A stretch of 64,000 nt of DNA, taken from Amylibacter sp. SFDW26. GTDB taxonomy: Bacteria; Pseudomonadota; Alphaproteobacteria; Rhodobacterales; Rhodobacteraceae. The notes under the pieces were generated by a model, which searched no databases, was not told the DNA's origin, and saw only the letters and a list, made by a program, of their open reading frames with translations. Below are positions 12,082-29,162 of the stretch, piece by piece; the first letter of the stretch is position 1, and every line of letters starts with the position of its first letter. The position numbers were made by a program, and so were the translations under genes. Location of the stretch: positions 1-64,000 of the forward strand of contig NZ_WEIC01000005.1 in the NCBI RefSeq assembly GCF_009184395.1. The letters are read 5' to 3'.

Positions 12082-12136
12082 ACGGTCTTTTCAACCTGTA
12101 TAAAACCTTTAAATTAAACGTAAAAAGGGGATGTAT

Positions 12137-12919
12137 ATGCTTACAGGACGCACAGCCGTAATTACAGGATCAACCAGTGGGATTGGTCGTGGTATCGCAT
12201 TGAAATTGGCGGCTGAAGGCGCGCAAATTATGATCAATGGTTTTGGCGACAAAGCTGACATTGATGCGTTGATTGCGGAATTGGAAAAATTATCTGGTAA
12301 ACGTGCGTTTTATTCAGATGCAGATATGACCGACCCTGATCAGATCGCGGAAATGATTAAAATGGCCGATGCCAAAATGGGCGGTGTCGATATTCTGATG
12401 AACAATGCAGGCATACAACACGTCAGCCCCGTCGAAGATTTTCCTGCTGATAAATGGGAACAGATCATTGCGATTAACCTAAGCTCTGCTTTTTACACGA
12501 CCAAAGCTGTGATTACAGGCATGAAGTCACGCGGTTGGGGGCGTATTATTAATCTGGCATCTGCCCATTCCTTGGTCGCATCACCCTATAAATCGGCTTA
12601 TGTCGCAGCCAAACACGGTATAGCTGGTTTGACCAAAACTGTCGCTTTAGAAGCGGCTGAATTTGGGGTCACAGTGAATGCTGTTTCACCTGGATATGTG
12701 CTGACGCCATTGGTGCAAGCCCAGATCGATGCCGTTGCCAAAGATCGCGGCATTAGTGAAGATGAAGCAAAGCTAGAAGGGTTTCTGGCGAAACACCCAA
12801 ACAAAGATTTTATCGAAGTGGATGATGTTGCAGCCACGGTTGTTTATTTATGCTCTGATGCTGCGAAAGGCATCACGGGGACGAATATATCCATGGATGG
12901 CGGATGGACGGCTGTTTGA
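12137..12919 (+). CDS. bdhA: D-3-hydroxybutyrate dehydrogenase
   Basis: A 260-aa short-chain dehydrogenase, probably oxidising D-3-hydroxybutyrate to acetoacetate with NAD in polyhydroxybutyrate or ketone-body breakdown. The TGSTSGIG cofactor motif (near 10), NNAGIQHV (near 89), catalytic Ser in SAHS, and YVAAK (Tyr-X3-Lys, near 155) are intact. The NAGIQHV and NAVSPGYVLTPLV segments are typical of the 3-hydroxybutyrate subgroup. ATG 12137 is preferred because AAAGGGG lies six bases before it; the ATG at 12131 abuts that site. It is 55 bp after the flavoprotein gene and may be co-transcribed, though no shared pathway is obvious. Confidence 0.9.
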   Translation: MLTGRTAVITGSTSGIGRGIALKLAAEGAQIMINGFGDKADIDALIAELEKLSGKRAFYSDADMTDPDQIAEMIKMADAKMGGVDILMNNAGIQHVSPVEDFPADKWEQIIAINLSSAFYTTKAVITGMKSRGWGRIINLASAHSLVASPYKSAYVAAKHGIAGLTKTVALEAAEFGVTVNAVSPGYVLTPLVQAQIDAVAKDRGISEDEAKLEGFLAKHPNKDFIEVDDVAATVVYLCSDAAKGITGTNISMDGGWTAV

Positions 12920-12994
12920 TGAAAAATCATCATAAATCCGAGTTATAATTCCTAAGGAATTACAAACACCCGTTAACATTTCCACCCTAGTTAA

Positions 12995-13024
12995 GAGGAT
13001 ACCTTCCACAACGAAAGTATCCTC
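12995..13024 (+). promoter_or_regulatory. Hairpin abutting a start codon
   Basis: Perfect 8-bp inverted repeat GAGGATAC / GTATCCTC with a 14-base spacer. The right arm ends at the base before ATG 13025. The left arm contains the only Shine-Dalgarno-like sequence (AGAGGA), which would be paired when the hairpin forms. There is no T-run, so it is unlikely to be the bdhA terminator. A translational control role is inference. Confidence 0.45.
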
Positions 13025-13342
13025 ATGTTCCTTAATTCTAAACTCCCGCTTCTTCTCTCTACTCTAGTACTCGCAAACTGCGGAGGCGCAGGTGAAGCTG
13101 TGATAAACCGTTTTGACACGGGCCAAGATATTTCCGATTTCATCGGCCCCTCTTCGGGTGACAATATAAAAATTAGCGCAGCACCTGCAAATGCATACGG
13201 TCAACATATGACCCTTGCGAACGGTTGTTCTTACTCACGTGCGCAAGCGCCGGGATACGCACCTACATGGCATCTTATTTTGAATCCACATCACCTTGGC
13301 CAACCAAATGCACACAAAGGCTGTGCTGCAATGTTGAGTTAA
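13025..13342 (+). CDS. Small predicted lipoprotein
   Basis: A 105-aa protein with a lipoprotein-like N-terminus: Lys6, a hydrophobic core, then a VLANC lipobox with Cys19 followed by GG. The Asn at -1 is atypical. The mature part contains three further cysteines or so and the segment NGCSYSRAQAPGYAPTWHLILNPHHLG, which looks like a Rhodobacterales-specific small exported protein; I do not recognise the family. The start codon is preceded directly by an 8-bp inverted repeat rather than a normal ribosome site. It converges on the sugar dehydrogenase gene with a 9-bp gap. Confidence 0.6.
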   Translation: MFLNSKLPLLLSTLVLANCGGAGEAVINRFDTGQDISDFIGPSSGDNIKISAAPANAYGQHMTLANGCSYSRAQAPGYAPTWHLILNPHHLGQPNAHKGCAAMLS

Positions 13343-13351
13343 TAATCCAGC

Positions 13352-14425
13352 TTAGTTTGGGGTCATTCGGTAAAGCACGCCATCGCCAACGGCCAAGAAA
13401 TAGATCGAGCCATCTGGGGCTTCGCGAATGTCGCGAATACGGTCATATTTCTTGGTGAATAAGCGTTCCTCACCCGTGATCCTATCCCCTTTGCGTTCAA
13501 GACGTGAAATCATATCGAATTTGAGTGAGCCCACAAAGATGTCACCTTTCCATTCAGGCCAAAGTTTACCCGAATAGATCATCATACCAGAGGGGGCGAT
13601 AGACGGATCCCAATAAAACTTGGGCTGTTCCATCCCATCTTTATGTGTGCCTTCGCCGATTTTACCACCCCTGTAATGAATACCGTATGAAATTACAGGC
13701 CAACCATAGTTTTTGCCGCGTTCAGGTTTGTTAACCTCATCGCCGCCTTTAGCACCATGGGCCACTGTCCATAACTGGCCTTGTAAGTCCAGAGTAGCGC
13801 CTTGGGGGTTCCGGTGGCCGATTGAATAGATTTCACCGCCACCATTTGGATTTACCCGAATAACCTTGCCATTATGGTGCTGCAAGCTTTGCGCTTTGGG
13901 GCGGTCACCACGATCACCAACCGTGACATATAGAAAACCATCTTTGCCTTCGACCACGCGCGATCCAAAGTGACGCCCCGCTTTACTGGCATGTATTTGA
14001 CGGTATAGAACCTTAAAATCAGAAATTTGGGTGCCATCAGCGGACAGCCGTGCGGTTCCCAATGCCGTCCCAGCGCCGCCTTTACGGGGTTCCGCATAGG
14101 TCAGATAAACTTTGCGGGTCTTGGAGAAATCACGTGCAATAACCACATCCAGTAATCCACCTTGCCCACTGGCCCAAACCTTTGGCACACCAGAGACCTC
14201 TTGCCGCTTGCCATTCTTAAAATGGATCAAAACGCCATCACGTTCTGTAATCAACAGGCCACCATCAGGCAGAACACCAACGGCCCAAGGGGCGTATAGA
14301 TCATCTAAAACTGGTTCAATTTTGACAGTTCCACTGTCATGCCGCATCACATCAGCAACGGACATGCCTGTTGAAAGGAATATCCCCGTACAAATTTGTA
14401 AAATGATGTGCCCAGTTTTCACCAT
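13352..14425 (-). CDS. PQQ-dependent aldose sugar dehydrogenase-like protein
   Basis: A 357-aa secreted six-bladed beta-propeller of the soluble glucose/aldose sugar dehydrogenase (YliI) family. It is expected to oxidise aldoses in the periplasm with PQQ as cofactor. A signal peptide occupies about residues 1-24. Family segments are [19 protein letters not shown] (about 46-64), GGLLDV, RHFGSR with the likely catalytic His, [11 protein letters not shown], and GAKGGDEVN. The start overlaps the end of the upstream glyoxalase-fold gene by 7 bp. No PQQ biosynthesis gene is in the window, so cofactor loading cannot be judged from here. Confidence 0.88.
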
Positions 14426-14862
14426 TCACCCACATTATCCATAGAGGCCCAGGGTTCTGTCGGTTGCAAGGCATCACCTTGCTGAAGCAGTTCAATTGAT
14501 ACATTATCTGGCGACTTAATAAACGCCATTCGCCCATCACGTGGGGGGCGATTGATCGTAACACCTTTGTTCAGTAAATCATTACAGGCTTCGTATATAT
14601 TTGGCACTGAATAGGCCAAATGGCCCCAACTACGCCCTGTTTCCAATTTTTCATCGCTGTTCCAATTATACGTCAGCTCTAATTCAGGGGCATGATGTTC
14701 CGAGGAGCTTTCTTCGTCTTCTGATGCCGTTAAGAACACCAATGTAAATTTACCTTCCGGATATTCAGTGCGACTGCGTTCGATCAATCCAAATTTGTTG
14801 CACCAAAAATCCAAAGACGCGTCTAAATCACTGACGCGCACCATTGTATGTAAAAATTTCAT
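14419..14862 (-). CDS. VOC family protein, lactoylglutathione lyase-like
   Basis: A 147-aa vicinal-oxygen-chelate fold protein resembling glyoxalase I, which isomerises the methylglyoxal-glutathione hemithioacetal. Features are the first beta-alpha-beta-beta-beta module starting [19 protein letters not shown] (metal His5), the ELTYNWN strand (metal Glu), GHLAYSV (second metal His) and SIELLQ (second metal Glu). An acidic insert [13 protein letters not shown] (about 51-63) is slightly long for GloA. It overlaps the sugar dehydrogenase start by 7 bp, so the two genes are coupled. Confidence 0.87.
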
Positions 14863-15032
14863 ACCATATCTCCTGTAATATTCACCAACATCATATCCAC
14901 GTGTTTACCTTTGTCCAATGACTTCGGCGGAGTTTCACCAATGAATTCCCCCCCCTATCCGTATATCCACTGAAAGGATCATGCTTGCGATAGAACTCGT
15001 GTATGGGTATTTTCAACAAAACGGGGGAAATC

Positions 15033-15323
15033 ATGGGTTTTTATCAGACGGTCACACTCGCATTCTGCATCGGCATGGCCGTTATATGGATCGCATCCAA
15101 ATTGCCTGTGTCGCAAAACCCGCTACAAAGGCCCCTTATCCTTTTGTCTGGTATTGCAATGATTGGCGTCATATTATGGCTGCTGTTGCAGATTTTCATT
15201 GGCCTGCCAAGCCTTGCTCAAACAGTAGATTTACCAGCGATTGGTCTTGGGTTATTGATCGCTTATGGCTTTGAAAATGCAAAAAACGCTCTAATTGAAC
15301 GAGCAAAAAACAAGTTCAAATAG
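15033..15323 (+). CDS. Small three-helix membrane protein
   Basis: A 96-aa hydrophobic protein with three predicted transmembrane helices (about 6-22, 32-54, 62-80) and a basic C-terminal tail. No family recognised. The start at 15033 is chosen because GGGGGAAATC stands just upstream; an in-frame ATG at 15003 has no such site. It is the last gene before the dusA insertion site, 48 bp upstream of the dusA stub, so it marks the host flank. Function unknown. Confidence 0.6.
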   Translation: MGFYQTVTLAFCIGMAVIWIASKLPVSQNPLQRPLILLSGIAMIGVILWLLLQIFIGLPSLAQTVDLPAIGLGLLIAYGFENAKNALIERAKNKFK

Positions 15324-15371
15324 CACTTCCCATATCTTGCTCTTGTGAACGCGCATGTTATAGGTCGATTT

Positions 15372-15446
15372 ATGCAGAAAACAGCCAAACACATCCTCAG
15401 CGTCGCCCCCATGATGGACTGGAGAGAAAGAGTAAATAACTCATAG
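15372..15446 (+). pseudogene. dusA: 5' stub of the original dusA (attL)
   Basis: The first 17 codons read MQKTAKHILSVAPMMDW, the start of tRNA-dihydrouridine synthase A. The frame then leaves the family (RERVNNS, stop at 15444-15446). The complete dusA at 31849 begins with a different ten residues but the same ILSVAPMMDW. This is what remains when an element inserts in the 5' end of dusA and supplies a replacement start. The host dusA promoter should lie in 15324-15371. Confidence 0.88.
15405..15423 (+). repeat. attL direct repeat in dusA stub
   Basis: Nineteen bases ending ATGATGGACTGGA, matching 31882-31900 with one mismatch (C versus G just before ATGATG). They encode APMMDW. The identical ATGATGGACTGGA core is the probable crossover region. 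Confidence 0.85.
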
Positions 15447-15460
15447 ATTTACGAGATCTT

Positions 15461-15480
15461 CTGTGCACCATCCGTGCAGT
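15461..15480 (+). repeat. GTGCA-type repeats at left island end
   Basis: Two adjacent copies, CTGTGCACCA and TCCGTGCAGT, lie 38 bases inside the left direct repeat. CCGTGCAGT recurs exactly at 31722-31730 and GTGCACCA at the right end too. They are candidate arm-type binding sites of the island integrase. Confidence 0.6.
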
Positions 15481-15666
15481 AATTGCTATCTGTTCAGTCA
15501 ATGTAGGGAAGGATATGAACATCCCCATTATCAGTAATTCTCACTCATTTATTCAAAATCGCGCAAAATTTATTAATCCTCAAGCAATCTGATCATATAA
15601 TAATGTTTTTTCATCCATAATCAAAACATAAGGTCAAATTATAACAACATTATCAATTATGAAGAC

Positions 15667-15693
15667 AAGGCATTTAAATTATCTAAATGCCTT
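15667..15693 (-). terminator. Hairpin downstream of flavoprotein-Prx gene
   Basis: Perfect 10-bp stem AAGGCATTTA / TAAATGCCTT with a 7-base loop, 15 bases beyond the stop of the minus-strand gene at 15708. The T-run on the minus strand is poor (GTCTTCAT), so termination may be partial or the hairpin may protect the mRNA 3' end. Confidence 0.6.
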
Positions 15694-15707
15694 GCGCAGT
15701 TTTTAAA

Positions 15708-18020
15708 TTACTCGGCTGCGATTGTTGATGACGAACTTAAATATTTTAAAATCATATCAGGGGCGCTTTCACCATAAGGGTCTTCGGAATGATTGTCTGA
15801 ACGCCCAGGTTCCTCGAACCAAGCTTCAATCACACCATTATTTACGATAGCTGCATAACGCCACGAACGCAGACCAAAACCTAAATTATCTTTTTGAACC
15901 AACATTCCAATTTTACGGGTGAACTCTCCAGACCCATCAGGGATAACCTTTACATTGGTAATCTTCTGTTGCTCAGCCCATTTATTCATTACGAAACTGT
16001 CATTAACAGACATACAATAAATTTCATCAATACCTTTCTCATTAAATCTTGTAAAATTTTCCTCAAAACCAGGAAGTTGATACGTAGAGCATGTTGGCGT
16101 AAACGCCCCTGGTAATGAGAACAACACAACACGTTTTCCATCAAAATATTCTGATGTCGTTTTATCTAGCCATCTAAATGGATTATCTGATTTGATTGTA
16201 TCGTCACGAACACGCGTTTTAAATGTGACACTTGGAAGTTTTAATCCTGTTTTCATAGTTAAGTATTTCCTTGTAAAATTATGATTTCTTTCAGGGTGGT
16301 AGATAAAATGAAGGGGATGCTGTTCCCCTTTGAGAGTAGCCAATACGGCATCCGCGATAATAGGCGCTTGAGCAAATCCGCCAGTATTATGTCCGCCAGA
16401 AACAATAAATGTGCCCCCTGACGAACACACTTCACTATGATACAAACCAAGTGAAGTAGCGGTCCAAGGCCGAATGCAATATTTATAGTTTGGCTGAAAA
16501 TCATCAGCGCCTTCTGGCAAACAATCTCCAAAGTATTCTTCAGCAGTATCTTTTAATGCATCATATAATACATCCAACTGATTTTGATTTATCAATTGCT
16601 CATACTGTTTTTGCTCACTGACATCTCCAACATACCCATAACCAGAACCGATTATTAAAGCATTATGACCACGGCTATTACAGGCAACAGTTATATTTGA
16701 ATCTTCTGCCAAATGACCTTTGCGCGCAAGTTTGAGTGATTTTTGCAATGGCAATCGCTTGTGATTAGGAATTTCCAACCATGCACCTAAGACGCCATGA
16801 ATTTTCCCCTCACACGGTGTATGCTGCAAGAGCTCATTACCATAAACACCTGGTGAGATTACATAATGATCTGATTGTAATAGAGTATCGCCAGTCAATA
16901 ATCCTGCAACAACGTTATGCTTAGTACGCAACACTTTATCAATTTGCGTGTTCCAATGTAGTTTGGCACCCTTATCCGTAATAAGCTCAACTAGTTTTTG
17001 AACGAATTTATGTACATTTACAGTGAAACCTTTGACTAAAATACCACCTGCAATTTTACCTTTTTCGCAGGCCATTTTCAATGAGGGGAAATTCTCTTTT
17101 ATGTAAGTAATGTCATAAGTATCTAGCAAAGCGCCCAATTTATCCTGACGCACAATGTCCCATTCGAACTGTTGTGGCGTATTATACAAGCGTAATATTC
17201 CATCCCTATGTACAACATCTTGAAAAATCTCATTATGATTACTTACAAGATCAATCCACAAAGGTTCGGCAGCAGCATTAAGCTGATAGATATCTTCGCT
17301 ATAAACAGATGCTAACCATGGTGGAATGGAGTTATGGGTGTCCAACCACTCATGCTGCTTTCCATTCTCTCTGATATCATCTTGAATAAGCCAGCCCCCG
17401 CTTGAGATATTATTTTCAAAAATAGGGTTTTTTTGGCAAAGCCTGTCCTTAATATTGTAATTATCCATTTCTGTTAAAGTGAACATTCGCGCATCGCCGC
17501 CGCCATTAGAGCAACCATGTTCACTCCAATGACCGTTACCTGGTTTTGGCGCTTGATCAAATATATCTACGTTGTAGCCATTATCTAAGAGCTGCAAAGC
17601 AAGAATAAGATTAGTAATCCCCGCACCAACAAGCATAACGGATTTACCAGTCAATATATCAGGCATTGCTAAACGCGTAGAATGTTTCAAGAACCATTGC
17701 TCCATACTACTTAAAGCAACACCAAGACCTTCATTACTAATTTCTACTTTCTGAAAAATAACTCCTTTGGGATATGTTTGCTTTGGCAGACCTGGGTGTG
17801 CAATAAATACATCATCTTCAGCATTTGATAACCATTGTTCTACGACTGCTTTTGAGGGCGGTACGCTACAAATTAACCCCTTTGCTCCTTGCATAATAAG
17901 GTTGTTAAGCAGCTTTTTTTCGCCTTCATACCCACTGGATGTTTTTATCCAGTGGGTATTTGGCGTCGCAAACAATGACCGGTCAATTTCGGTTGTTTCA
18001 ATGTTTATGACTATCTGCAT
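15708..18020 (-). CDS. DAO-type flavoprotein fused to Prx5-like peroxiredoxin
   Basis: A 770-aa protein in three parts. Residues 1-115 are an unrecognised N-terminal domain. Residues 120-580 are a D-amino-acid-oxidase-like FAD domain with VMLVGAGITNLILAL (Rossmann, 129-142), HGCSNGGGDARMF (168-180) and RPWTATSLG (518-526). Residues 589-760 are a Prx5-type peroxiredoxin with PGAFTPTCST (637-646, peroxidatic Cys644). The oxidase would make H2O2 that the attached peroxiredoxin could remove. It starts 3 bp after the HDO gene. An internal ATG at 16256 begins the Prx domain and has AAGGAA upstream, so free peroxiredoxin may also be made. Substrate unknown. Confidence 0.82.
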   Translation of the reverse strand: MQIVINIETTEIDRSLFATPNTHWIKTSSGYEGEKKLLNNLIMQGAKGLICSVPPSKAVVEQWLSNAEDDVFIAHPGLPKQTYPKGVIFQKVEISNEGLGVALSSMEQWFLKHSTRLAMPDILTGKSVMLVGAGITNLILALQLLDNGYNVDIFDQAPKPGNGHWSEHGCSNGGGDARMFTLTEMDNYNIKDRLCQKNPIFENNISSGGWLIQDDIRENGKQHEWLDTHNSIPPWLASVYSEDIYQLNAAAEPLWIDLVSNHNEIFQDVVHRDGILRLYNTPQQFEWDIVRQDKLGALLDTYDITYIKENFPSLKMACEKGKIAGGILVKGFTVNVHKFVQKLVELITDKGAKLHWNTQIDKVLRTKHNVVAGLLTGDTLLQSDHYVISPGVYGNELLQHTPCEGKIHGVLGAWLEIPNHKRLPLQKSLKLARKGHLAEDSNITVACNSRGHNALIIGSGYGYVGDVSEQKQYEQLINQNQLDVLYDALKDTAEEYFGDCLPEGADDFQPNYKYCIRPWTATSLGLYHSEVCSSGGTFIVSGGHNTGGFAQAPIIADAVLATLKGEQHPLHFIYHPERNHNFTRKYLTMKTGLKLPSVTFKTRVRDDTIKSDNPFRWLDKTTSEYFDGKRVVLFSLPGAFTPTCSTYQLPGFEENFTRFNEKGIDEIYCMSVNDSFVMNKWAEQQKITNVKVIPDGSGEFTRKIGMLVQKDNLGFGLRSWRYAAIVNNGVIEAWFEEPGRSDNHSEDPYGESAPDMILKYLSSSSTIAAE

Positions 18021-18023
18021 GAC

Positions 18024-19073
18024 TTACATTTTCTTCATACGTTCAAGCAGAACATCACAGATGGTTCCAGCAGCATCTAAACGCCGCACTACGCCCCAGA
18101 TCATATCTGGCAGAACGTTTGGATTTTCGCTAATAAGTGGCAGAACTACGTTGTCCATCCAACCAGATGCATGCACTACATCCAAACTAATATGTTGTAT
18201 CAAATATGGCATATTTTCATCAGGAACGCCGACGCGTCTCCATCCAAAAACTTGTTTACGTAAGCGACCAGGAACAACTTCTTCGGTAGCCAAAAGCATG
18301 CCAATCAATTCAGCTAGTTTATTACGATTGAACCCTGCAAGCATGTACATATTGGCCAATGCAAGCTCTTCAACGCAAAACCCTTCTATATTTTCATATC
18401 TTTCGGCAGTAATACCGATCTTTTCCATCATATTGACGCGCATAGTGCGGTGCACGCCATCCACTTTCATTTCACCCATCTCATCAAGATAGTTATTTAA
18501 AATCTCCATTTTCATTTCATCATAAATGCCAGGCAGCATTAAAGAAACGATATCACCGAACAACATATCGAATGGCGCTTCTTGAACAATGAACTCACTC
18601 AGTTGTTCAAATGTGGCTTCATGTTCTAGGAAATCAAAAACTGGGTGATGTACGTTATGTGGGTGTTGTTTTACATGCTCTTTGATTGCACCAGAAAGAT
18701 CATCTTTGCCCGCTGCAACCAAAGCATCGAAATCCCCACTCAAACGTTTACGATCACTCGCATCCACGGCTTCACTAAACAAATGTACAATACGCATAAA
18801 AACAGGAAGCTGTGCGTTGATAGCATCTTTTTTCCAATGTAACGCAAAATTTGCGGTTAGAATTTGGAAAACAGTACGGTGCAAATCAAGGAGAGCATCT
18901 GGGTCTGCTTGCCCAAAAGCTTTTTCAATCAATTGCTTTGTATAGGATACGGCTTCTTCTTCAATGTCAGATGTACACTCACGGTCGAAGCCTTTCTTAT
19001 AAACGTTGCTTTGTGCGAACGAGAACAGGCTTGTCGCGATCTTTGCGTTACTTGGTTTAAAAAGTTGGTTCAT
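18024..19073 (-). CDS. Heme-oxygenase-like diiron (HDO) family protein
   Basis: A 349-aa protein resembling the iron-containing redox enzyme family (Haem_oxygenase_2 fold). Characterised HDO enzymes use a diiron site and O2 for N-oxygenation, C-C cleavage or desaturation. The core from about residue 140 shows HHPVFDFLE, a ligand Glu in IVQEAP (about 165), DEMGE followed by His (about 198-208), and the terminal HISLDVVHASGW, giving the late His-X4-Asp-X2-His pattern. The N-terminal 130 residues are helical and unassigned. ATG 19073 has AGAGGAAA upstream; 19094 does not. It is first in a two-gene operon with the flavoprotein-peroxiredoxin fusion. Confidence 0.75.
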   Translation of the reverse strand: MNQLFKPSNAKIATSLFSFAQSNVYKKGFDRECTSDIEEEAVSYTKQLIEKAFGQADPDALLDLHRTVFQILTANFALHWKKDAINAQLPVFMRIVHLFSEAVDASDRKRLSGDFDALVAAGKDDLSGAIKEHVKQHPHNVHHPVFDFLEHEATFEQLSEFIVQEAPFDMLFGDIVSLMLPGIYDEMKMEILNNYLDEMGEMKVDGVHRTMRVNMMEKIGITAERYENIEGFCVEELALANMYMLAGFNRNKLAELIGMLLATEEVVPGRLRKQVFGWRRVGVPDENMPYLIQHISLDVVHASGWMDNVVLPLISENPNVLPDMIWGVVRRLDAAGTICDVLLERMKKM

Positions 19074-19447
19074 TAATTTATTTCCTCTTGCCATGTGGCG
19101 ATCAATTACTAGGCGATAAAACCCAGATGCAGGCCAACAGCGGCCCTAGCATAGATTTCATGCTTGCCAGATCGTCACAAAATTCGAGGTAATATGTCTA
19201 ATACCTAAAATGGGTATTAGACATTTATATAGTGGTAAAAATTGTGAGCGAGAGTATAGAAGCCGTAATGGACTATGTAACTAAATCCATTAATAATTTT
19301 CTGTCGTCCCCACTCAAGAACAATCAGTTTTTGATCACATCCTTTGACGGCGATATTATACATTAGCTCCACGAGGCAGCCCGCAAAAACTGAATCAATC
19401 AGCAGAACTCGTCATTAAAAACCATCTTTGGTAAAGCATTATAGCAC
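19074..19447. other. Intergenic region between HDO operon and transporter
   Basis: No gene found in 374 bp. It holds the putative promoter of the HDO gene and a strong inverted repeat at 19194-19224. The part 19225-19447 lies downstream of proV and contains no clear terminator and no recognisable protein remnant. Confidence 0.5.
19194..19224. promoter_or_regulatory. Perfect 12-bp inverted repeat upstream of HDO gene
   Basis: ATGTCTAATACC and GGTATTAGACAT are perfect complements separated by TAAAATG. It lies about 120 bp upstream of the HDO start on the minus strand. It has no T-run on that strand, so an operator for a dimeric regulator (perhaps the nearby AraC protein or an unknown one) is more likely than a terminator. 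Confidence 0.5.
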
Positions 19448-20470
19448 TTATGGTACAAGTGCTCGAACAAGTTCCTTCATATGCAAAGTGCCTACGGTTT
19501 CGTCATTGTCTACAACTTCATAACAACAGTTGGTATTACCACCTGACAATGCAATTACTTTCTCTAGATTATCTGACGCCTGAACTTGCCCTGTTATTTT
19601 TAGCAGCCTGCCATCTTTTGGCGACATAACTGAACGAACCCTTAATACACGTGCACGATTAATATCGGCCACAAATTCTTCAATATACGGGTCCTTTGGG
19701 TTTAATAAAATACCTTGAGGATCGCCTTGTTGAACAACATACCCATCTTTCAAAATCACGAGATGGTCCGCCAATTTAAGTGCTTCATCTAGATCATGGG
19801 TGATAAACACAATTGTCTTATGAAGCTCTTTTTGAAGCTCTAGTAACAAATCCTGCATATCTGTTCGAATAAGGGGATCTAGAGCAGAATATGCTTCATC
19901 CATCAACATGATTTCAGAATCCGATGCCAATGCACGTGCAATACCTACGCGTTGTTGCATACCACCTGATAACTGGTGTGGGTAATGGTTATCATATCCA
20001 GAGAGGCCAACACGCTCTAACCATTTTAAATTCTTAGTGGATGTTTCCTCAATGTCTTCACCACGTACCAGCGCCGACATTCCAGTATTTTCCAAGACAG
20101 TTTTATGAGGCAATAAAGCAAACTTTTGAAACACCATCGACATCGTATTTCGTCTCAACTGGCGGAGTTCGTTAACACCATAATCAAGAACATTTTCACC
20201 ATTCACGAATACTTCACCCGATGTTGGTTCGATCAACCTGTTAAGGTGCCGGATTAATGTTGATTTACCAGATCCAGACAACCCCATTATGACTGTGATT
20301 TCCCCAGATTGGATATCTACATTTATGTTTTGCAAACCCATGACATGGGCATGTTGTTTTAGCAAATCTTGTTTGCCTAATCCATTTAGAACATGTTCCA
20401 TCATAACATCAGGATTATTACCAAATATCTTATATAAAGAGCGGATGGATATTTTCGTTGTTTTAAGCAT
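19448..20470 (-). CDS. proV: OpuA/ProV-type ABC transporter ATP-binding protein
   Basis: A 340-aa ATPase of the quaternary-amine (glycine betaine/proline) uptake family, driving import across the inner membrane. Walker A is GLSGSGKST (about 64), the Q-loop FQKFALLPHKT (about 113), the signature LSGGMQQR (about 166) and Walker B IMLMDEAYSALDP (about 187). A single CBS-like C-terminal domain (about 278-338) follows; many ProV proteins have two. It lies 11 bp after the permease gene. Ligand specificity cannot be read from this subunit. Confidence 0.93.
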   Translation of the reverse strand: MLKTTKISIRSLYKIFGNNPDVMMEHVLNGLGKQDLLKQHAHVMGLQNINVDIQSGEITVIMGLSGSGKSTLIRHLNRLIEPTSGEVFVNGENVLDYGVNELRQLRRNTMSMVFQKFALLPHKTVLENTGMSALVRGEDIEETSTKNLKWLERVGLSGYDNHYPHQLSGGMQQRVGIARALASDSEIMLMDEAYSALDPLIRTDMQDLLLELQKELHKTIVFITHDLDEALKLADHLVILKDGYVVQQGDPQGILLNPKDPYIEEFVADINRARVLRVRSVMSPKDGRLLKITGQVQASDNLEKVIALSGGNTNCCYEVVDNDETVGTLHMKELVRALVP

Positions 20471-20481
20471 TTTTATCCCTC

Positions 20482-21522
20482 TTAGTTTTGTGTAGTGTTA
20501 ATTCGGGACAAAGCAGCTTTACTGACACGATCCAATAAAATCGCCAACATGACGATACAGAACCCAGCAACCAGCCCTACGCCCAATTCAAGATTGCGAA
20601 TGCCTCGAAGTACAAGGACACCCAAACCTGGGGCAGAAACCAATGAAGCAATAACGACAAGTGACAACGCCATCATTATCGTTTGATTAAGGCCTGCCAT
20701 AATGTTTGGCATTGCTAGAGGTAGTTGTACATTAATCAATTTCTGCCTGCTATTCATGCCATAAGCGTCGGCAGCTTCTATGACATCCTTATCTACAAGC
20801 CGGATGCCCAGATCTGTTAATCTCATAATCGGAACAATTGCATATAAAATTATGGCAATGCCATATAATTTTGACTCCGTCACACTAAACAAAAAGATCA
20901 AAGGCACAAGGTATACAAATGCTGGCAATGTTTGCAACATATCCAAAATGGGGATCATAGTTTTTTTAAATACGTTACTCTTGGACATTAAAACACCTAA
21001 CGGTAGGCCTATGACAACACAAATAACAGTACAAACAGTGATAATTGATAATGTTTGAACCGCATGTAGATAATGATCAATGAAGGCAAAAAACATAAAT
21101 GTTGCTAGAACCAAACCAACGATTGCAATCGACCTGGCAACATAAAAAGCAAAAACAGCAAGCGCGGGAATTAGAACAAACCATGGCATTGCGACAAATA
21201 TTTCTAGTGAAGCATCCAAAGCCCAGCTCAATGGTTGTGTCATCGGGTCCAATACAAATTTAATTGCATCTTTTGTTGCTAAAAAGAAATCTTCCAAACC
21301 AGAAGTCATGTCTCTTGTGCGTGCAATTGCGGGGCAAGATGCGTTCAGTGCATCAAGCGATGGGAATGGTATATCCCAAAATGATGTACCCTCTATCTTG
21401 CTCACTTCATTTTGTCCGCTCTTTGACATAAAATCAGACATTGTCAAAAGGTTTCCTTCACTCTCCGATTTACACCAATCGGACAATCCAACCGATGTAA
21501 AAACATTATCATAAAACGCCAT
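20482..21522 (-). CDS. proW: OpuA/ProW-type ABC transporter permease
   Basis: A 346-aa inner-membrane permease of the BPD_transp_1 family. A long N-terminal cytoplasmic region (about 1-95) precedes roughly seven hydrophobic segments. The EAA-type loop contains DVIEAADAYGMNSRQKLINVQLPLAMPNIMAG-like sequence (about 238-269), where it contacts the ATPase. AGGAAAATAA precedes ATG 21522. It sits between the binding protein and ATPase genes and is separated from the former by a 128-bp gap holding a hairpin. Confidence 0.92.
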   Translation of the reverse strand: MAFYDNVFTSVGLSDWCKSESEGNLLTMSDFMSKSGQNEVSKIEGTSFWDIPFPSLDALNASCPAIARTRDMTSGLEDFFLATKDAIKFVLDPMTQPLSWALDASLEIFVAMPWFVLIPALAVFAFYVARSIAIVGLVLATFMFFAFIDHYLHAVQTLSIITVCTVICVVIGLPLGVLMSKSNVFKKTMIPILDMLQTLPAFVYLVPLIFLFSVTESKLYGIAIILYAIVPIMRLTDLGIRLVDKDVIEAADAYGMNSRQKLINVQLPLAMPNIMAGLNQTIMMALSLVVIASLVSAPGLGVLVLRGIRNLELGVGLVAGFCIVMLAILLDRVSKAALSRINTTQN

Positions 21523-21568
21523 TTATTTTCCTATTGTAAACTTCACCAATATACTTGGTGTGAATAAT

Positions 21569-21595
21569 GGAGGTGCGCATCTTGTGAGCACCTCC
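21569..21595 (-). promoter_or_regulatory. Intercistronic hairpin between proX and proW
   Basis: Perfect 8-bp stem GGAGGTGC / GCACCTCC with an 11-base loop, 56 bases past the proX stop. It lacks a T-run. In binding-protein-first operons such hairpins commonly stabilise the binding-protein mRNA or reduce downstream expression; that function here is inferred. Confidence 0.55.
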
Positions 21596-21650
21596 TTAAC
21601 CGTACAAACTGGGAGACAGCCCTAAAACGGTTTATCTTTTTGTTTGCTTT

Positions 21651-22634
21651 TTATTTTAAGAAGCCGCTTAATTTTTCTTTTGCATCATCATCTAACCAAG
21701 CAGCCCATGTCTCTTTGTTGTTAGATAAAAAATAAACAGCAGCTTCTTCAGACGATGCAGAGTTATCTTGTTGCCAAGCTAAGACGCCGTTCATTTGAGC
21801 ATTTGTCATAGAAACTTTGGACATAAGTTCAGCTATCTTAGGTTCTTTATCCTCAAAGCTCGTGGTAACCGCAGTAATCACGTCAGACGTTGGATAATTA
21901 GAAAGCCCTTTATTATCGCTGCATTCTGCAGAAGAGTTACACCTGTGAATTTCTTCATTCACAGGTGCAATATCAACCTTTACCATTGGATATTTACCTA
22001 AAACAGCGGTAGGTGCCCAATAATATCCAAACCACGGTTCTTTCGCTTCATATGCGGCAGCTATAGAAGCCGCAAGAGTTTCGCCTGAGCCGTGATTAAA
22101 TACTTCTATACCTTTGCTTTCCATGCTTAAAACTGCAGCCATTGACCCACTGGATATTTTACAAGCCCAACCATCTGGACAATTGTGAAAACGACTTCCT
22201 ACCAGCTCTGGATTTGCCAAAATCCCTTTTGCCGTTGTTAATTCTGGATGCTTTTCTGCGAGGTAATCAGGTATCCACCAGCCCTCTTCACCCCCGTCCG
22301 ATAAAACCTTACCAACTGTTTTTATTTTTCCAGCATCAACCAGACCTGGATAAGCAGGAACATTTGCAACCCATAATTCTGTAACAATATCAGGTTCATT
22401 AGTTTCAGAAACGGACACAATTGAAGGAATTGTATCGGAAGGTACGAGAACAACTTCACAACCGTATCCTTGTTCCATAATAAACTTTGATACATGCGTT
22501 ACAATAGAAGCAGACGCCCATCCCATTTCAGTGATGGATACTTGACCACAATCTGCATGAGCTTGTGAAGCAAACAGTGCCGTTGCAGACGTAAATGTTG
22601 CATAAACTACGGCTATTTTTGTATTTTTTTTCAT
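21651..22634 (-). CDS. proX: OpuAC-type substrate-binding protein
   Basis: A 327-aa periplasmic binding protein for a quaternary-amine-type ABC importer. A signal peptide ending SQAHA (about residue 27) is followed by the OpuAC domain with ITEMGWASASIVTHV and EEGWWIPDYLAEKHPEL segments. Tryptophan-rich segments (ELWVAN, WWIPDY, WFGYYWAP) could form an aromatic cage for a methylated ammonium group, but I cannot confirm the ligand. Four or more cysteines in the mature part (CGQVS, GCEVV, NCPDGWACK, RCNSSAEC) suggest disulfides. It is first gene of the proXWV operon, divergent from the AraC-type gene. Confidence 0.9.
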   Translation of the reverse strand: MKKNTKIAVVYATFTSATALFASQAHADCGQVSITEMGWASASIVTHVSKFIMEQGYGCEVVLVPSDTIPSIVSVSETNEPDIVTELWVANVPAYPGLVDAGKIKTVGKVLSDGGEEGWWIPDYLAEKHPELTTAKGILANPELVGSRFHNCPDGWACKISSGSMAAVLSMESKGIEVFNHGSGETLAASIAAAYEAKEPWFGYYWAPTAVLGKYPMVKVDIAPVNEEIHRCNSSAECSDNKGLSNYPTSDVITAVTTSFEDKEPKIAELMSKVSMTNAQMNGVLAWQQDNSASSEEAAVYFLSNNKETWAAWLDDDAKEKLSGFLK

Positions 22635-22894
22635 TATATTCTCCCTATTATTAATAAGTAAAATGCGTTTCTTTCTAGCAAAAATTTATTGCACGCATAT
22701 CACCTAGAGAGCTAATGATTTTAGAAGTTCGGGATCGACAAGCTCGATAAAGGTTTACAACTTGCTTCATGTACATGAGCATCAAATTGTTATTTATTTG
22801 ATCTACACATAGAAAATTACCAATAAATCTTTGGCCTACTTTCTATACTTATGGCATTAATTGAAACCTGAGCTTCGCAAAGGACAAACTAGCA

Positions 22895-24025
22895 ATGTTG
22901 AGTTTAGATAATATCTTTTTTGGCACGGCCATTCATGGTGCTGCATTAGTAGTCTTACTGTTCTTTAATGCTCATGCAAACAGAACCGCTAATAGGTTAT
23001 TGGCCATCCTCGTTGCGCTTCTTACAATAACTATGTGGAATATGTACACGCTCACTGCACAGTCTGGGCAACCAAAAAGAGTTTTCGATGTCTATATATG
23101 GGCAATACCACTTCTTTGGGCACCTTTTGTATATTTCTATATTGGCGAAATGACACGGCAAAAAAGAGTGAAAGATCAAAAGGTTTTAATTCATTGCCTG
23201 CCTGCTATTCTATTAGGCTTGGCACAAATTCCACTACATTTTTTTCAAGATACAGCAAATGGTATTCTGATAACGACTATACTGTCCAAAACCGCTGTAG
23301 TTCTGCTTTTCCCACAAGTCTTTTTATATTTTTCCTTATCTGTACGGCTATTAAAAAAGTATCGCCAAAATCTGTTAGAGCAATTCTCATCATTAGAGAA
23401 AATTAATCTTGTTTGGCTTTATGTTGTCTTAGGTGTTTTTTCTTTAATATTGTTAATCGACTATTCGATGAACATTCCAGCAACTTTATTCAATGAAGCG
23501 CGACCTTGGTTCTATAACTGGATTGTTTTGACTGAAGCTTTAACGGTATACGTAGTAGGTTATTTGTCATTGCGGCAACCAGAGATATTTCTCGGTACGA
23601 ATTCAGCTCCTGATACGCCAAACCCAACGATTGAGAAATATTTGAATTCACCAATTGATAATACGCTTGGTACAGAACTCGCTGATAACTTAGATACTTT
23701 AATGAAAAAGAAAAAGCTTTTCTTACGCAACGATCTAAACCTAACAGATCTTGCAAGTGAAATGGGTTTAGCGCCCCATCATTTATCTCAGGTCATAAAC
23801 CAACATCGCTATAAAAATTTCTATGATTATGTTAATGGTTTTCGCATTAAATATGCTGCCGATTTCTTAATAGCTAATGGCAAAACTAACCTCACCACTT
23901 TAGCTTTTGAAGCAGGATTTAATAATAGGGTTTCATTCAATAATGCTTTTCGAAAACTTACGAATAAAACTCCAACTGAATTCAGCCGAGAATATAAGTC
24001 TTCCATTACTAAACAACAACATTGA
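22895..24025 (+). CDS. Membrane-bound AraC-family regulator
   Basis: A 376-aa regulator with an N-terminal membrane domain of about seven helices (residues 5-235) and a C-terminal AraC DNA-binding domain (about 265-370) with [21 protein letters not shown] and [21 protein letters not shown] helices. This architecture suggests direct sensing at the inner membrane. It is divergent from proX over a 260-bp region, so it is the best candidate regulator of the transporter and perhaps of the HDO operon. The gene is AT-rich like its neighbours. The ATG is preceded by AAAGGACAAACTAGC. Confidence 0.85.
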
Positions 24026-24069
24026 TGGTATCGCTCTTTATATTCTGAAGCTATTAAAACATAAAATAA

Positions 24070-24479
24070 ATCAAGACTATTACTTCACCGAAGATGGCTG
24101 TCGCCGTGATGAAGATGGGTACTATTGGATCACTGGTCGTGTGGACGATGTGTTGAACGTCTCTGGTCACCGTATGGGTACAGCTGAAATTGAAAGCGCA
24201 TTGGTCGCCCATCCAAACGTGGCGGAAGCTGCTGTTGTAGGCTTCCCACATGATGTTAAGGGGCAAGGTATCTATTGTTATGTGTCCCTGAATGTAGGCA
24301 CAGAAACATCCGAAGACTTGCGCCTTGAGTTGCGTAATTGGGTGCGTAAAGAGATCGGTCCAATTGCCTCCCCTGACTTTATCCAATTCGCCCCTGGTTT
24401 GCCAAAAACACGCTCTGGCAAAATCATGCGCCGCATTCTGCGTAAGGTTGCAGAAAATGATTACGGATCATTGGGGTAA
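24070..24479 (+). pseudogene. acsA: Fragment of acetyl-CoA synthetase gene
   Basis: The frame encodes [19 protein letters not shown] through [16 protein letters not shown], the C-terminal domain of acetyl-CoA synthetase, including the acetylatable Lys region GKIMRR. It lacks the N-terminal 500 or so residues and the usual last 20 or so (it ends GSLG then stop). Codon choice is closer to the host core than to the AT-rich AraC gene 45 bp upstream, so the junction near 24030-24070 is a recombination point. Probably not functional. Confidence 0.85.
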
Positions 24480-24496
24480 GCATGATCCGTAATTTT
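24460..24496. terminator. Bidirectional terminator at end of acs fragment
   Basis: Perfect 11-bp stem ATTACGGATCA / TGATCCGTAAT with a 12-base loop, followed by TTTT on the plus strand and CATTTT on the minus. It overlaps the last codons of the acs fragment and lies 19 bases past the stop of the convergent mipA gene. Confidence 0.75.
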
Positions 24497-24514
24497 GATT
24501 GTTCACCAGAACGA

Positions 24515-25306
24515 TTAGAAGTTGAACAGAACCCCTAATGACGCTTCTTGTGTTGTGGATGATCCGTGATCGCGCACAAGTGGACTGTCAGAAATAGAAG
24601 ATCCGTATGTTTCAATAGATGCGTTTGCAAATAGGACTGTGGAATCGGTTAACGCATAATCCAAGCCTAAGCCAAATGAGGTGCCTTTATATCCGCCAGA
24701 TGCGTTATAGCTGCTTAAGCCTGAGGCAGCTGCATCTGCCGCAGTAATTCCCACTTCAGTGTTCATATGTGTGGAATTTGCAAAGCTGACGTCAACGCTC
24801 GCATTCCAAGACAGGCGATCTGTAAGTGATTTTTCATACCCTGCGCCAACAAAACCAACAAAGCCTTTGCCGCGATTACGAATGTCTTGTTGCAACCCTA
24901 GACCGATTTCGAAATTACCTAATTCACGTATAATAACGGCTTGAAACTCTACGGTGTCTTCAACTTCTTTAAAACCTGTCAGGATCGGGTCATCTGCATT
25001 ATCACGGCCAAATTCATATTCGAAGTTCAACTTAACTTTTGTCGCTTCAAAGGGTTCAAATTCTACGCCAATGCCATCTGTACCGACAGACCATGTTACA
25101 TCATTTGCTGTTGTATATGCAGCCCCTAAAAGAAAACCTGCTTCGGTTGAATATTCATCTGAGCCGACATAAGCGGGTTCGTATTCAGCACCTAAACCAA
25201 GCCTAAAGGACCAACCTTGCTCTTCTGCGAATGCGGAAGGGGCAGCCAGACAAAGGCTTAAAGGTAAAATGAGTAAAGATTCTTTACGAGAATTTAAGAT
25301 TCGCAT
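24515..25306 (-). CDS. MipA/OmpV family outer membrane protein
   Basis: A 263-aa outer-membrane beta-barrel of the MipA/OmpV family. A signal peptide ends SAFA (about residue 27). Alternating amphipathic strands follow, starting WSFRLGLGAEYEPAYVGSDEY, which is the family opening, and the chain ends in the barrel-assembly signal FNF (last Phe). MipA in E. coli scaffolds murein enzymes; other members are adhesins or of unknown role. It converges on the acs fragment and is divergent from the LuxR-type gene. Confidence 0.88.
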   Translation of the reverse strand: MRILNSRKESLLILPLSLCLAAPSAFAEEQGWSFRLGLGAEYEPAYVGSDEYSTEAGFLLGAAYTTANDVTWSVGTDGIGVEFEPFEATKVKLNFEYEFGRDNADDPILTGFKEVEDTVEFQAVIIRELGNFEIGLGLQQDIRNRGKGFVGFVGAGYEKSLTDRLSWNASVDVSFANSTHMNTEVGITAADAAASGLSSYNASGGYKGTSFGLGLDYALTDSTVLFANASIETYGSSISDSPLVRDHGSSTTQEASLGVLFNF

Positions 25307-25452
25307 ATCTGTTTCCTTGTTATTAGATATGCGGCAATTAAATGTTTAAATACGATTGCGTCATCCAGCATAGGAACTATTTAACGGTCATTTTATTCTC
25401 ATGCGTCAAATGACATATAGTGAAACAGGGTAAATTTCGCTTTATTGTAAGA

Positions 25453-25998
25453 ATGAAAATTCAACAAACATATTCACGAGAAAAACAGTTCTCAATTTTA
25501 GCATTGATATTGCTTTTACTCGCTATCGCTTTTGATATCTGGGAAGATGTTCAAGAAGGCGAAGCTTTGGTGGAATTACTAAAGGATGTTGTCGTGGTTG
25601 CGATGGTATCGCTTTTGCTTGCATACATCTATGTATTGCAACCCATGAAAACCAAATCGGATAACAAAGAATTATCCCGCAGTAATGATGCACAAGCCAT
25701 AGATATTGCGCATTTATCGCATCAAAGACAAATTCAGTTGGAAGGTTTGGCGATTTATATAGATGCACAATTTGATGCATGGAGCTTAACAGCAGCAGAA
25801 AAGGACGTGGCTTTGATGTTGTTGAAAGGGTTCTCTATGAAAGAAATTTCAGACCTAAGACAGGTTTCTGAGCGAACAACGCGTCAACAAGCGGTCACGA
25901 TTTATAGTAAAGCGGATATCGGGGGACGTGCAGAGCTTTCAGCATTTTTTTTAGAAGATCTTTTGCTGCCATCTACTTTTTCGACTGCAGCTAAGTAA
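25453..25998 (+). CDS. Membrane-anchored LuxR-type HTH protein
   Basis: A 181-aa protein with two hydrophobic segments (about 13-30 and 48-66) followed by a linker and a LuxR-like helix-turn-helix (about 115-170: WSLTAAEKDVALMLLKGFSMKEISDLRQVSERTTRQQAVTIYSKA). It lacks a receiver or autoinducer domain, so the membrane part may sense a signal. An upstream in-frame GTG at 25420 is possible, and neither start has a strong ribosome site. It is divergent from mipA and ends in a terminator shared with the tRNA-Lys fragment. Confidence 0.75.
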   Translation: MKIQQTYSREKQFSILALILLLLAIAFDIWEDVQEGEALVELLKDVVVVAMVSLLLAYIYVLQPMKTKSDNKELSRSNDAQAIDIAHLSHQRQIQLEGLAIYIDAQFDAWSLTAAEKDVALMLLKGFSMKEISDLRQVSERTTRQQAVTIYSKADIGGRAELSAFFLEDLLLPSTFSTAAK

Positions 25999-26025
25999 AA
26001 GTAAATTCATTAAGCACCAAAAACA

Positions 26026-26060
26026 AAAGGCTCAGCAAATAAATGCTAAGCCTTTGTTTT
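26026..26060. terminator. Bidirectional intrinsic terminator
   Basis: AAAGGCTCAGCA and TGCTAAGCCTTT form a 12-bp stem with one mismatch and a six-base loop. It is followed by GTTTTATT on the plus strand and by TTTTGTTTTTGG on the minus strand. It serves the LuxR-type gene and was probably the native terminator of tRNA-Lys. Confidence 0.85.
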
Positions 26061-26062
26061 AT

Positions 26063-26107
26063 TGGTGAGCCGGTCGGGGTTCGAACCCGAGACCTACTGA
26101 TTAAAAG
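26063..26107 (-). pseudogene. 3' fragment of tRNA-Lys (TTT)
   Basis: On the minus strand the sequence runs from the anticodon loop (CTTTTAATCAGT) through the variable loop and an intact T-arm (TCGGG, TTCGAAC, CCCGA) to the acceptor strand and an encoded CCA. The 5' half of the tRNA is missing; at 26108 the match stops. It stays beside its terminator. This is the classic remnant left at one end of a tRNA-integrated element. No complete tRNA-Lys is visible in the window. Confidence 0.8.
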
Positions 26108-26131
26108 TAACTAAAGCGGTAAGCGTTGTTT

Positions 26132-26231
26132 TTACTTCCCAAAGTTCCACCGTAGCAGTTCGTGGATGGTCGCAATCGCTGTTTCAATATCTTCAAGCAT
26201 CAGTTCATATTGATCTGTAGATACTTTCTCT
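26132..26231 (-). pseudogene. IS66 transposase fragment, downstream part
   Basis: The minus strand encodes KPEKVSTDQYELMLEDIETAI, the segment that follows the LFG motif in IS66-family TnpC. The matching upstream part lies on the plus strand at 31110-31234, ending ALFG. The two halves meet if the intervening 5 kb is inverted. Ends with a stop at 26132. Confidence 0.7.
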
Positions 26232-26236
26232 GGCTT

Positions 26237-26395
26237 TGGGTTGGTAGGTAAGAGCCAAGAGCGTGACAGACGGCCCACACAGGGCGAGATTGACGCGATG
26301 CTTGCCTACTTCGGTACAAATCCATCCATCATACCTATGAGCCGTATTGTACGCTTTGCGATTGCAGCAGCCATGCGCCAAGAAGAAATATGTTT
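26237..26395 (+). pseudogene. Tyrosine integrase fragment, catalytic start
   Basis: The frame reads GLVGKSQERDRRPTQGEID, then IVRFAIAAAMRQEEIC, which contains the box I catalytic Arg and following Glu of tyrosine recombinases. It continues directly the integrase core-binding segment that ends ARVALKRL at 31240 on the other strand. Truncated on the right by the serine recombinase fragment; the box II His-X2-Arg and Tyr are missing. Confidence 0.75.
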
Positions 26396-26755
26396 GATAG
26401 GTTTAGGACGTAATTTATGTCCCAACAGTCCTTGGGCCTTTTCAAACTCAGCCTTTATCACCACTGGTATGTGATTTACTGAATACAACTGTCCCTTCCA
26501 ATGGATAAATTTCGCATAAAATGGGTTCTACAGTATCTTGTATATAGTGGGGACAGCGGGATGTTTGCCGCCTGCCTTTTTCCGTAGAGGCGTTGTGTAA
26601 TTCCAATGGTTACACACCACACGGTGTACTGAACTAGGTGAATGATGCCCTGATAGTAAAAGGTCAAACATCGAACGCATGGCACCAAAATGTTCTTTGT
26701 CTAGCACAATTGTTTTAGTTACTGGACAGTTGAGATAGCCAATGGGAGCAATCAT
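26396..26755 (-). pseudogene. Large serine recombinase fragment
   Basis: The minus strand encodes the Recombinase domain of a large serine recombinase: APIGYLNCPVTKTIVLD, MRSMFDLLLSGHHSPSSVHRV, KKAGGKHPAVPTIYKIL, stop, NPFYAKFIHWKGQLYSVNH, EFEKAQGLLGH. A stop codon replaces the usual Gln before NPFYA, and both the catalytic N-terminal resolvase domain and C-terminus are absent. Non-functional remnant. Confidence 0.78.
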
Positions 26756-26995
26756 GCCTTATATTAGTCGATATATGGATTAAAATAGAATTTAAATTTA
26801 TAATATTTACTTTGTGTTGCATTGCTTGCAATCAAATAAATTAATTTAACAAACTCAATTATATTATGTGATTTTGAGCAAGAAGGTATCAAAGCCACAA
26901 TTTTTTATGGTGGTTTTATACTTGCGGATACAATTTATAACTTGCGTGTCATATTTAAAGTCAGGACATATGTGATCGAGTTGAGACATATAGCA

Positions 26996-28317: not shown

Positions 28318-28343
28318 ATATTAAATTGGGACGATAATAGAAG

Positions 28344-29030: not shown

Positions 29031-29162
29031 TATTCAGGGTAGTCAACATACCCATTGATTATTATTTTGCCGTATTTATAAGTTTAGCTTCAACATCTTA
29101 CAGTTGTTTTTAATAAGCGTGAATTACTATAAATATATTAATTATAATGAAAGCCATTTTAT

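Follow-up and report, generated by a model that had tools for sequence, protein, structure and literature searches.

The superfamily of heme-oxygenase-like diiron (HDO) proteins exceeds 10,000 sequences, and about a dozen members have a validated function according to PMC13108848. The same source states that HrmI converts the side-chain amine of lysine to a nitro group and that HrmI and BesC have common metal ligands, yet catalyze different reactions. Another HDO-like protein, DtpC, is co-transcribed with the catalase KatE and limits H2O2 in dried Acinetobacter cells, and alanine exchanges of its predicted ligands E143 and H153 abolished this protective effect (PMC13232832). A structure is available for the binding protein RnDmpX in complex with the algal sulfur compound dimethylsulfoniopropionate (DMSP; PDB entry 7YLE), which is held in a pocket formed by W35, T64, W84, E113, W152, A153, Y200 and W202; little binding of trimethylamine N-oxide, betaine, choline and carnitine is reported for DmpX of R. 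pomeroyi (PMC10030565). The dusA-specific islands, as described in PMC4482086, insert into the 5' end of dusA, replace this end and are bordered by imperfect repeats. Here, we describe a locus of the marine-type bacterium Amylibacter sp. SFDW26 (assembly GCF_009184395.1, contig NZ_WEIC01000005.1), in which relatives of these systems stand side by side. The window, i.e. the whole stretch of DNA that was analyzed, comprises positions 1 to 64,000 of the forward strand of the contig. It contains a gene for an HDO protein, followed by a gene for a flavin oxidase fused to a peroxiredoxin (DAO-Prx), an ATP-binding cassette (ABC) importer and an AraC-type regulator, and the whole HDO/DAO-Prx/importer block is cargo of a genomic island. 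HDO and DAO-Prx might together produce an N-oxygenated metabolite, whereas the importer is probably a DMSP transporter with a function of its own.

Five genes are encoded on the minus strand from position 22634 down to 15708, in the order binding protein, permease, ATPase, HDO and DAO-Prx. Every named gene is an open frame with a strong family match, far above chance in profile searches:

15708-18020, minus strand: DAO-Prx fusion, 770 amino acids in one unbroken frame
18024-19094, minus strand: HDO gene, 356 amino acids, PF14518 match with an E-value of 9.7e-36
19448-20470, minus strand: dmpV-like ATPase gene (family match)
20482-21522, minus strand: dmpW-like permease gene (family match)
21651-22634, minus strand: dmpX-like gene for a predicted DMSP-binding protein (OpuAC family match and match to 7YLE)
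22895-24025, plus strand: AraC-type regulator gene, divergent from dmpX, HTH_18 match with an E-value of 3e-15
15666-15694: hairpin, possibly the end of the transcript, beginning 13 bp past the DAO-Prx stop codon
19194-19224: perfect 12-bp palindrome with a 7-nt center, a putative operator located some 100 bp upstream of HDO

Only 3 bp (18021-18023) lie between HDO and DAO-Prx, and frames and family matches agree with the arrangement given in an earlier note on this DNA, namely an HDO gene, a spacing of 3 bp and a fusion of a DAO-type oxidase with a Prx5-like domain. The same holds for its membrane-bound AraC regulator: in addition to the HTH_18 domain, the protein has a hydrophobic N-terminal half with five hydrophobic stretches within residues 4-199. 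The ABC genes are separated from HDO by 353 bp, and the palindrome falls into this gap; no second copy of it was found in the window with up to three mismatches allowed. A scan for RNA families across positions 15000-32000 revealed no riboswitch upstream of HDO at gathering thresholds, and its sole match was a chance-level miRNA (E-value 0.68).

The HDO protein belongs to the HDO superfamily (Haem_oxygenas_2, PF14518; 123.7 bits with a cut-off of 28.9). Its nearest solved relative is HrmI with an E-value of 7e-32 over 298 residues, while the other solved matches are weaker (SznF, 1e-5; BesC, 0.008). The candidate metal ligands are E172, E205, H215, E271, H301, D305 and H308, and all seven positions are identical in HrmI and likewise in the aligned Tistrella and Burkholderia relatives. 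E205, H215, E271, H301, D305 and H308 are identical in all ten aligned HDO relatives, and E172 is kept in seven of them (not in L040, L041 and L042). By alignment, the protein therefore has the three histidines and three carboxylates (or three and four) of the superfamily, with its iron-binding carboxylates as candidates, and the earlier proposal of an HDO enzyme is borne out to the extent that candidate ligands are present. The spacing between E205 and H215 equals that between E143 and H153 of DtpC. Homologs are rare. Within the class, 11 of 289 genomes contain one at an E-value of 1e-3, with two of one genus reaching 43%; within the phylum, the count is 5 of 398 genomes at 1e-20. Both counts include the own genome. 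Among 72,556 plasmid records, 47 contain a homolog at 1e-5, all with less than 60% identity, and no relatives were confirmed in the collections genome_contigs and viral_contigs. In Tistrella mobilis (locus L044, 9435-15423) and Burkholderia stagnalis (L043, 10830-18913), an HrmI-like HDO gene is located near a CysK-like gene; both clusters look like small, uncharacterized biosynthetic clusters and differ in their further genes. The neighbors of the HDO relatives in two other B. stagnalis loci (L116 and L117) gave no functional hint.

The DAO-Prx protein consists of an N-terminal domain (residues 1 to about 120), a flavin domain with the fold of glycine oxidase (about 125-580) and a Prx5-like domain (588-768). 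Profile searches place the DAO match at residues 131-559 (9e-20; PF01266, 71.9 bits with a cut-off of 27.9) and the Redoxin match at 621-740 (8e-26). G132 and G134 are invariant and, together with N137, which is so in the first alignment, read as the GxGxxN motif of an FAD-binding Rossmann region. The structural model is of good quality over most of residues 1-580, but poor in the peroxiredoxin part, for which the alignment contained no relatives. Foldseek groups the predicted flavin domain with CmiS2 (6e-17), glycine oxidase, MnmC and sarcosine oxidase, and the comparison of residues 125-580 (approximate borders) with CmiS2 yielded a TM-score of 0.79 by CmiS2 length. By sequence, the flavin domain has no match in the PDB below an E-value of 0.09, and no NCBIfam model comes near its cut-off. 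Cys515 is invariant in 29 sequences, and its position in front of the RPxT motif may correspond to that of the cysteine which binds the flavin in monomeric sarcosine oxidase. The best solved match of the peroxiredoxin domain is the peroxiredoxin part of the peroxiredoxin-glutaredoxin hybrid HI0572 (1e-48). Its only cysteines are Cys644, situated in the sequence PGAFTPTCS, and Cys669; we take the former to be part of the peroxidatic P..T..C motif of Peroxiredoxin 5-type enzymes. The domain is 73% identical to the free-standing peroxiredoxin of the host, which also contains PGAFTPTCS, and 70-76% identical to 29 free-standing peroxiredoxins of the same bacterial family.

Residues 1-580 of DAO-Prx define a flavin-oxidase family with an extra N-terminal domain, which looks uncharacterized. 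It was found in three plasmid records and 42 loci of genome_contigs, 45 loci in all, and the tree spans Pseudomonadota, Actinomycetota, Cyanobacteriota and Bacillota. Closer to the host, its own genome is the only one among 33 of the genus to encode a member, and two of 394 genomes of the bacterial family do so at 1e-20, own genome included. None of the 45 relatives is fused to a peroxiredoxin: the tail after the last family motif is at most 45 residues long in those 36 of the 46 rows (window domain included) in which this motif can be placed, and tblastn detected any peroxiredoxin in only two loci, as a separate gene with 34-35% identity.

Neighboring genes of the DAO family were counted by tblastn. 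The counts are lower bounds, as 16 of the 45 loci extend for less than 8 kb to one side, and they are nested in clades, within which the loci cannot be taken as independent cases. A homolog of the aspartate N-hydroxylase 8CP2, which makes nitrosuccinate that decays to 3-nitropropionate (PMC10404684), is encoded in at least 12 loci (L047, L048, L049, L059, L060, L072, L075, L078, L079, L083, L089 and L090), as a piece only in L048 and as a protein matching with 3e-51 in L072. These 12 loci are candidate nitro or N-N natural-product clusters and fall into three parts of the tree, namely eight of a group of ten rows, three from Burkholderia, and L049. The latter locus, from Streptomyces sp. HD (3985-20647), contains the N-hydroxylase homolog and the DAO-family gene together with MetRS-like, cupin-like, second DAO and lysine-N-hydroxylase-like genes (by eye), and looks like hydrazine-forming machinery (compare PMC13061610). 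Genes of gamma-glutamyl or glutathione metabolism are found in 25 of the 45 loci (PuuD-like, 7; GGT, 3; GGACT, 9; GST, 3; glutathione synthase, 3); 30 loci have such a gene, an N-hydroxylase gene or both, and three more have a class-I GATase. Other neighbors look biosynthetic, such as a pyridoxal phosphate (PLP) decarboxylase (7/45), one type of aminotransferase (9/45), a LysE exporter (9/45), two types of formyltransferase (9/45) and a nonribosomal peptide synthetase in L048. EamA-like genes, named by eye, occur beside the DAO relatives as one type in seven loci and another (c9) in five, and a nitronate-monooxygenase-like gene, also named by eye, in the three Burkholderia loci. In a small control of 13 other loci from other genomes (257 kb), no matches were obtained for N-hydroxylase, GGT, GGACT, PuuD-like, GST, glutathione synthase, EamA, aminotransferase, formyltransferase, GNAT, NMO or MetRS; LysE was matched in two of the 13 and PLP decarboxylase in one. 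For the DAO family, a glucosinolate-like route via an oxime and glutathione is no more than an idea; a literature search on it yielded nothing.

HDO and DAO genes do not form a conserved pair within the loci examined. None of the 45 DAO loci contains an HDO gene (phmmer on home-made gene calls, which are error-prone in GC-rich DNA, tblastn and profile), and a tblastn search at 1e-3 found no DAO-family match in five HDO loci of 20-25 kb (L044 and L118 from Tistrella; L043, L116 and L117 from B. stagnalis). Among these loci, the combination of HDO and fusion gene is confined to the window, and no homologs of the pair were seen in a known pathway. In line with the earlier note, which knew of no described pathway with this gene set, none appeared in the titles and abstract openings of the papers retrieved on HDOs, their partners and side links.

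Our proposal is that two separate functions ride on the island in the dusA 5' end. DmpXWV would import DMSP for the DmdA pathway of the host, and HDO and DAO-Prx would form a unit that makes a small oxidized-nitrogen metabolite, starting from an amino acid or amine. Like HrmI, the HDO protein, presumably loaded with two iron ions, might use O2 for the oxygenation of an amine, which would become an N-hydroxy, oxime or nitro group. The flavin domain, which probably acts as an oxidase rather than a dehydrogenase, would oxidize a C-N bond of either the substrate or the product, depending on the order of steps, and release H2O2, which the fused peroxiredoxin could destroy on the spot using thiols. 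Export by the EamA transporter encoded on the island is possible. The proposal builds on gene content, ligand conservation, family links, flavin-domain fold and island borders, which were computed directly. It is preferred mainly because the place that a flavin N-hydroxylase takes beside some DAO relatives is taken in the window by a diiron candidate N-oxygenase, a parallel that is guilt by association. It is further supported by the closeness of HDO to HrmI as compared to SznF and BesC, by the match of the flavin-domain fold to CmiS2, glycine oxidase and sarcosine oxidase, which are oxidases by name, by the co-occurrence of the DAO family with an amino-acid N-oxygenase in 12 of 45 loci by the recurrence of biosynthetic-looking neighbors and EamA-like genes, by the peroxiredoxin fusion, which is restricted to the window copy among the relatives examined, and, with regard to a separate role of the importer, by DmdA of the host. 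Several points, however, weigh against it. The function of HDO cannot be deduced from its ligands, because HrmI and BesC share theirs and differ in reaction, and the AlphaFold2 model of HDO, computed without an alignment, has a pLDDT of about 37 (36.9), too low to reveal the seven-helix heme-oxygenase fold or its metal site. Two enzymes would make a very short pathway. In the tree, the window DAO protein groups with seven actinomycete sequences (SH-aLRT 98), but on a long branch of 1.13, and its reaction may therefore have drifted. Moreover, the N-hydroxylase link belongs to the DAO family and not to the window: it is unseen in 33 of 45 loci, and within the sister group of seven actinomycete loci the gene is present only in L049, 3 kb away. 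That the pair makes an N-oxygenated, amino acid-derived metabolite is thus a tentative reading that rests on association and could well be wrong. Its more far-reaching form, a self-contained, island-borne two-gene pathway, in which an HrmI-like N-oxygenase and a new flavin-oxidase family with a built-in peroxidase yield a nitro, oxime or N-hydroxy compound and in which this flavin family is a recurrent partner of N-oxygenases (12 of 45 loci, HDO here), appears possible but rather unlikely.

Similar doubt applies to a biosynthetic unit with a different chemistry, which is conceivable, though we would not expect it to be correct. Here, HDO would cleave a C-C bond, desaturate or cyclize its substrate like UndA, BesC, MboA and PolF, the flavin oxidase would act on the product amine and the peroxiredoxin would clear the H2O2. 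HDOs with similar ligand sets are described to catalyze such reactions (PMC13108848; for MboA, PMC13185094), and the neighbors of the DAO family are amino acid-tailoring genes in general, with an N-hydroxylase in only 12 of 45 loci; among the solved proteins matched, however, HrmI (7e-32) is by far the most similar to HDO in sequence, well ahead of BesC (0.008).

The importer can be explained without the HDO pair. Its binding protein matches 7YLE with an E-value of 1.3e-127, and all eight residues of the DMSP pocket of RnDmpX are identical at the aligned positions. DMSP is the predicted ligand because of this match and the retained pocket, and a DMSP importer is the better interpretation of the transporter. 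The earlier note had proposed an OpuA-type importer for quaternary amines; the family assignment holds (OpuAC), but the quaternary-amine ligand was dropped in favor of DMSP, a sulfonium compound. Eight of the 33 genomes in the genus, including that of the host, encode a binding protein with 52% identity or more. Eight regions of 3.9-20 kb with related ABC operons were fetched from relatives, seven of them containing a close DmpX and one (G142) a homolog of 39-40%, and none has a match to HDO, DAO, Prx or AraC. The host encodes the DMSP demethylase DmdA (512 bits with a cut-off of 410); the model gave 13 matches in the genome with one above the cut-off, and GCV_T-type proteins are therefore numerous in this host. 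Outside the island, positions 9667-12919 of the window encode a DAO-GCV_T protein (804 amino acids) and a 3-hydroxybutyrate-dehydrogenase-like protein. Since the host has its own DmdA, the imported compound does not have to serve the HDO pair, and the earlier suggestion that the importer supplies this pair finds no support in the DMSP pocket or in the related operons.

A catabolic module, in which HDO and DAO-Prx degrade what dmpXWV imports, be it DMSP or a closely related betaine or sulfonium, would fit the adjacency of all genes on one island with similar GC content. In Rhizobium rhizogenes (L086), a DAO-family gene likewise has an ABC importer at a distance of about 5 kb, the binding protein of which is 37% like the DmpX of the window; however, none of the other DAO loci, 45 in all, shows this. 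The 353-bp gap sets the ABC genes apart from HDO, the eight fetched ABC regions, some of which are short, lack HDO and DAO, DMSP offers the flavin domain no amine, DmdA is present in the host, and many DAO relatives are located in biosynthesis-like loci. We consider such a module unlikely. Still less probable is a protective module, in which HDO limits endogenous H2O2 as DtpC does and peroxiredoxin takes the place of KatE as the peroxide-removing partner. Like the DtpC gene (PMC13232832), the HDO gene stands next to a gene for a peroxide-removing enzyme, as it precedes the peroxiredoxin fusion, but the likeness to DtpC is one of gene arrangement, and the flavin oxidase would be a source of H2O2 and not a sink. 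The lack of a fused peroxiredoxin in all 45 oxidase relatives suggests a service that is special to the window copy, without saying which.

The island itself, which was absent from the earlier note, is delimited by comparison with an empty site seen in one relative of the same genus (G507). Its features, together with those of the adjoining dusA gene, are:

15372-15423, plus strand: left scar, the original 5' end of dusA with its first 17 codons; the relative L125 runs straight on into dusA
15424-31878: genomic island of 16,455 bp, missing in G507
24073-26108: captured chromosomal piece with an acs 3' fragment, MipA, a LuxR-like gene and part of a tRNA-Lys gene
26996-27580, minus strand: nitroreductase-family protein (family match)
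28344-29030, plus strand: LuxR-type regulator (family match)
29163-30059, plus strand: EamA transporter (family match)
30065-30910, plus strand: PEP-mutase-family protein, 5 bp after the EamA gene
31070-31716, minus strand: broken frames like the start of a tyrosine integrase, recognized by eye
31849-32838, plus strand: dusA with a new 5' end derived from the island, DusA match of 495 bits with a cut-off of 269

Positions 11002-15423 of the window align to G507 with 84% identity, G507 continues from the equivalent of 15423 directly into dusA, and dusA of the window resumes at 31879 (85%). Imperfect 19-bp repeats (18 of 19 identical) are present at both edges (15405-15423 and 31882-31900), and the GC content of the island is 0.388 on both sides of the captured piece as compared to 0.453 and 0.452 in the flanks. 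Scar, new dusA start and repeats fit the published arrangement of dusA-specific islands (PMC4482086). An intact integrase of the dusA type was not found in the island, where only broken frames are present, the longest of which (31073-31480) has no Pfam match. Because of this, the integrase family cannot be assigned, and we file the island as a relic at the dusA site and not as a full dusA-specific island. A piece of an IS3-type transposase was seen by eye at the dusA end (within 31070-31849). In the captured piece, the acs fragment is 99.3% identical over 404 bp to acs of the host on contig C5, and the LuxR-like gene has a GerE match just below the cut-off. The full acs gene on C5 is not accompanied by MipA, while acs, MipA and tRNA-Lys are consecutive in G507; the piece arose either by capture or by a rearrangement with duplicated ends. 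That the whole cargo is decaying, as the broken integrase-like frames and the captured acs fragment might suggest, is very improbable, since the HDO, DAO-Prx and ABC frames are intact and the HDO ligands, the invariant DAO residues and the peroxiredoxin cysteine are kept.

Because few HDOs have been validated, the two-gene unit is a tractable case for a new reaction. The oxidase-peroxiredoxin fusion suggests that the peroxide formed by the oxidase is of consequence for the cell, the island illustrates how a bacterium can acquire a DMSP importer by transfer, and a flavin-oxidase family is brought to light that is present in four phyla and is encoded near N-oxygenase and gamma-glutamyl/glutathione genes.

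Taken together, each part of the block has known kin, and the block is new in this combination. HDO resembles the lysine N-oxygenases HrmI and BelK, with HrmI as its best solved match and all candidate ligand positions in common, but the relation is distant and HDO has a flavin oxidase-peroxiredoxin partner instead. With DtpC-KatE of Acinetobacter baumannii it shares a gene setting, that is, an HDO encoded with a peroxide-removing enzyme, and the two were likened by this setting; the partner in the window, however, is the DAO-Prx fusion. The flavin domain is related to the group of CmiS2, glycine oxidase and sarcosine oxidase by predicted fold, yet identity is 11-17% among the 50 rows listed, and the window protein has an extra N-terminal domain, invariant motifs of its own and a fused peroxiredoxin. 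The latter is most similar to the hybrid HI0572 among solved proteins, but it lacks the glutaredoxin domain and is fused to a flavin oxidase instead. DmpXWV is matched in gene order, pocket residues and similarity to 7YLE (E-value about 1e-127), and the copy in the window stands out by its island location, its proximity to HDO and DAO-Prx and the AraC gene that diverges from it. This island, in turn, shares the insertion into the dusA 5' end, the replacement of this end and the imperfect repeats with the dusA-specific islands, but, unlike them, was found to have only broken integrase-like frames.

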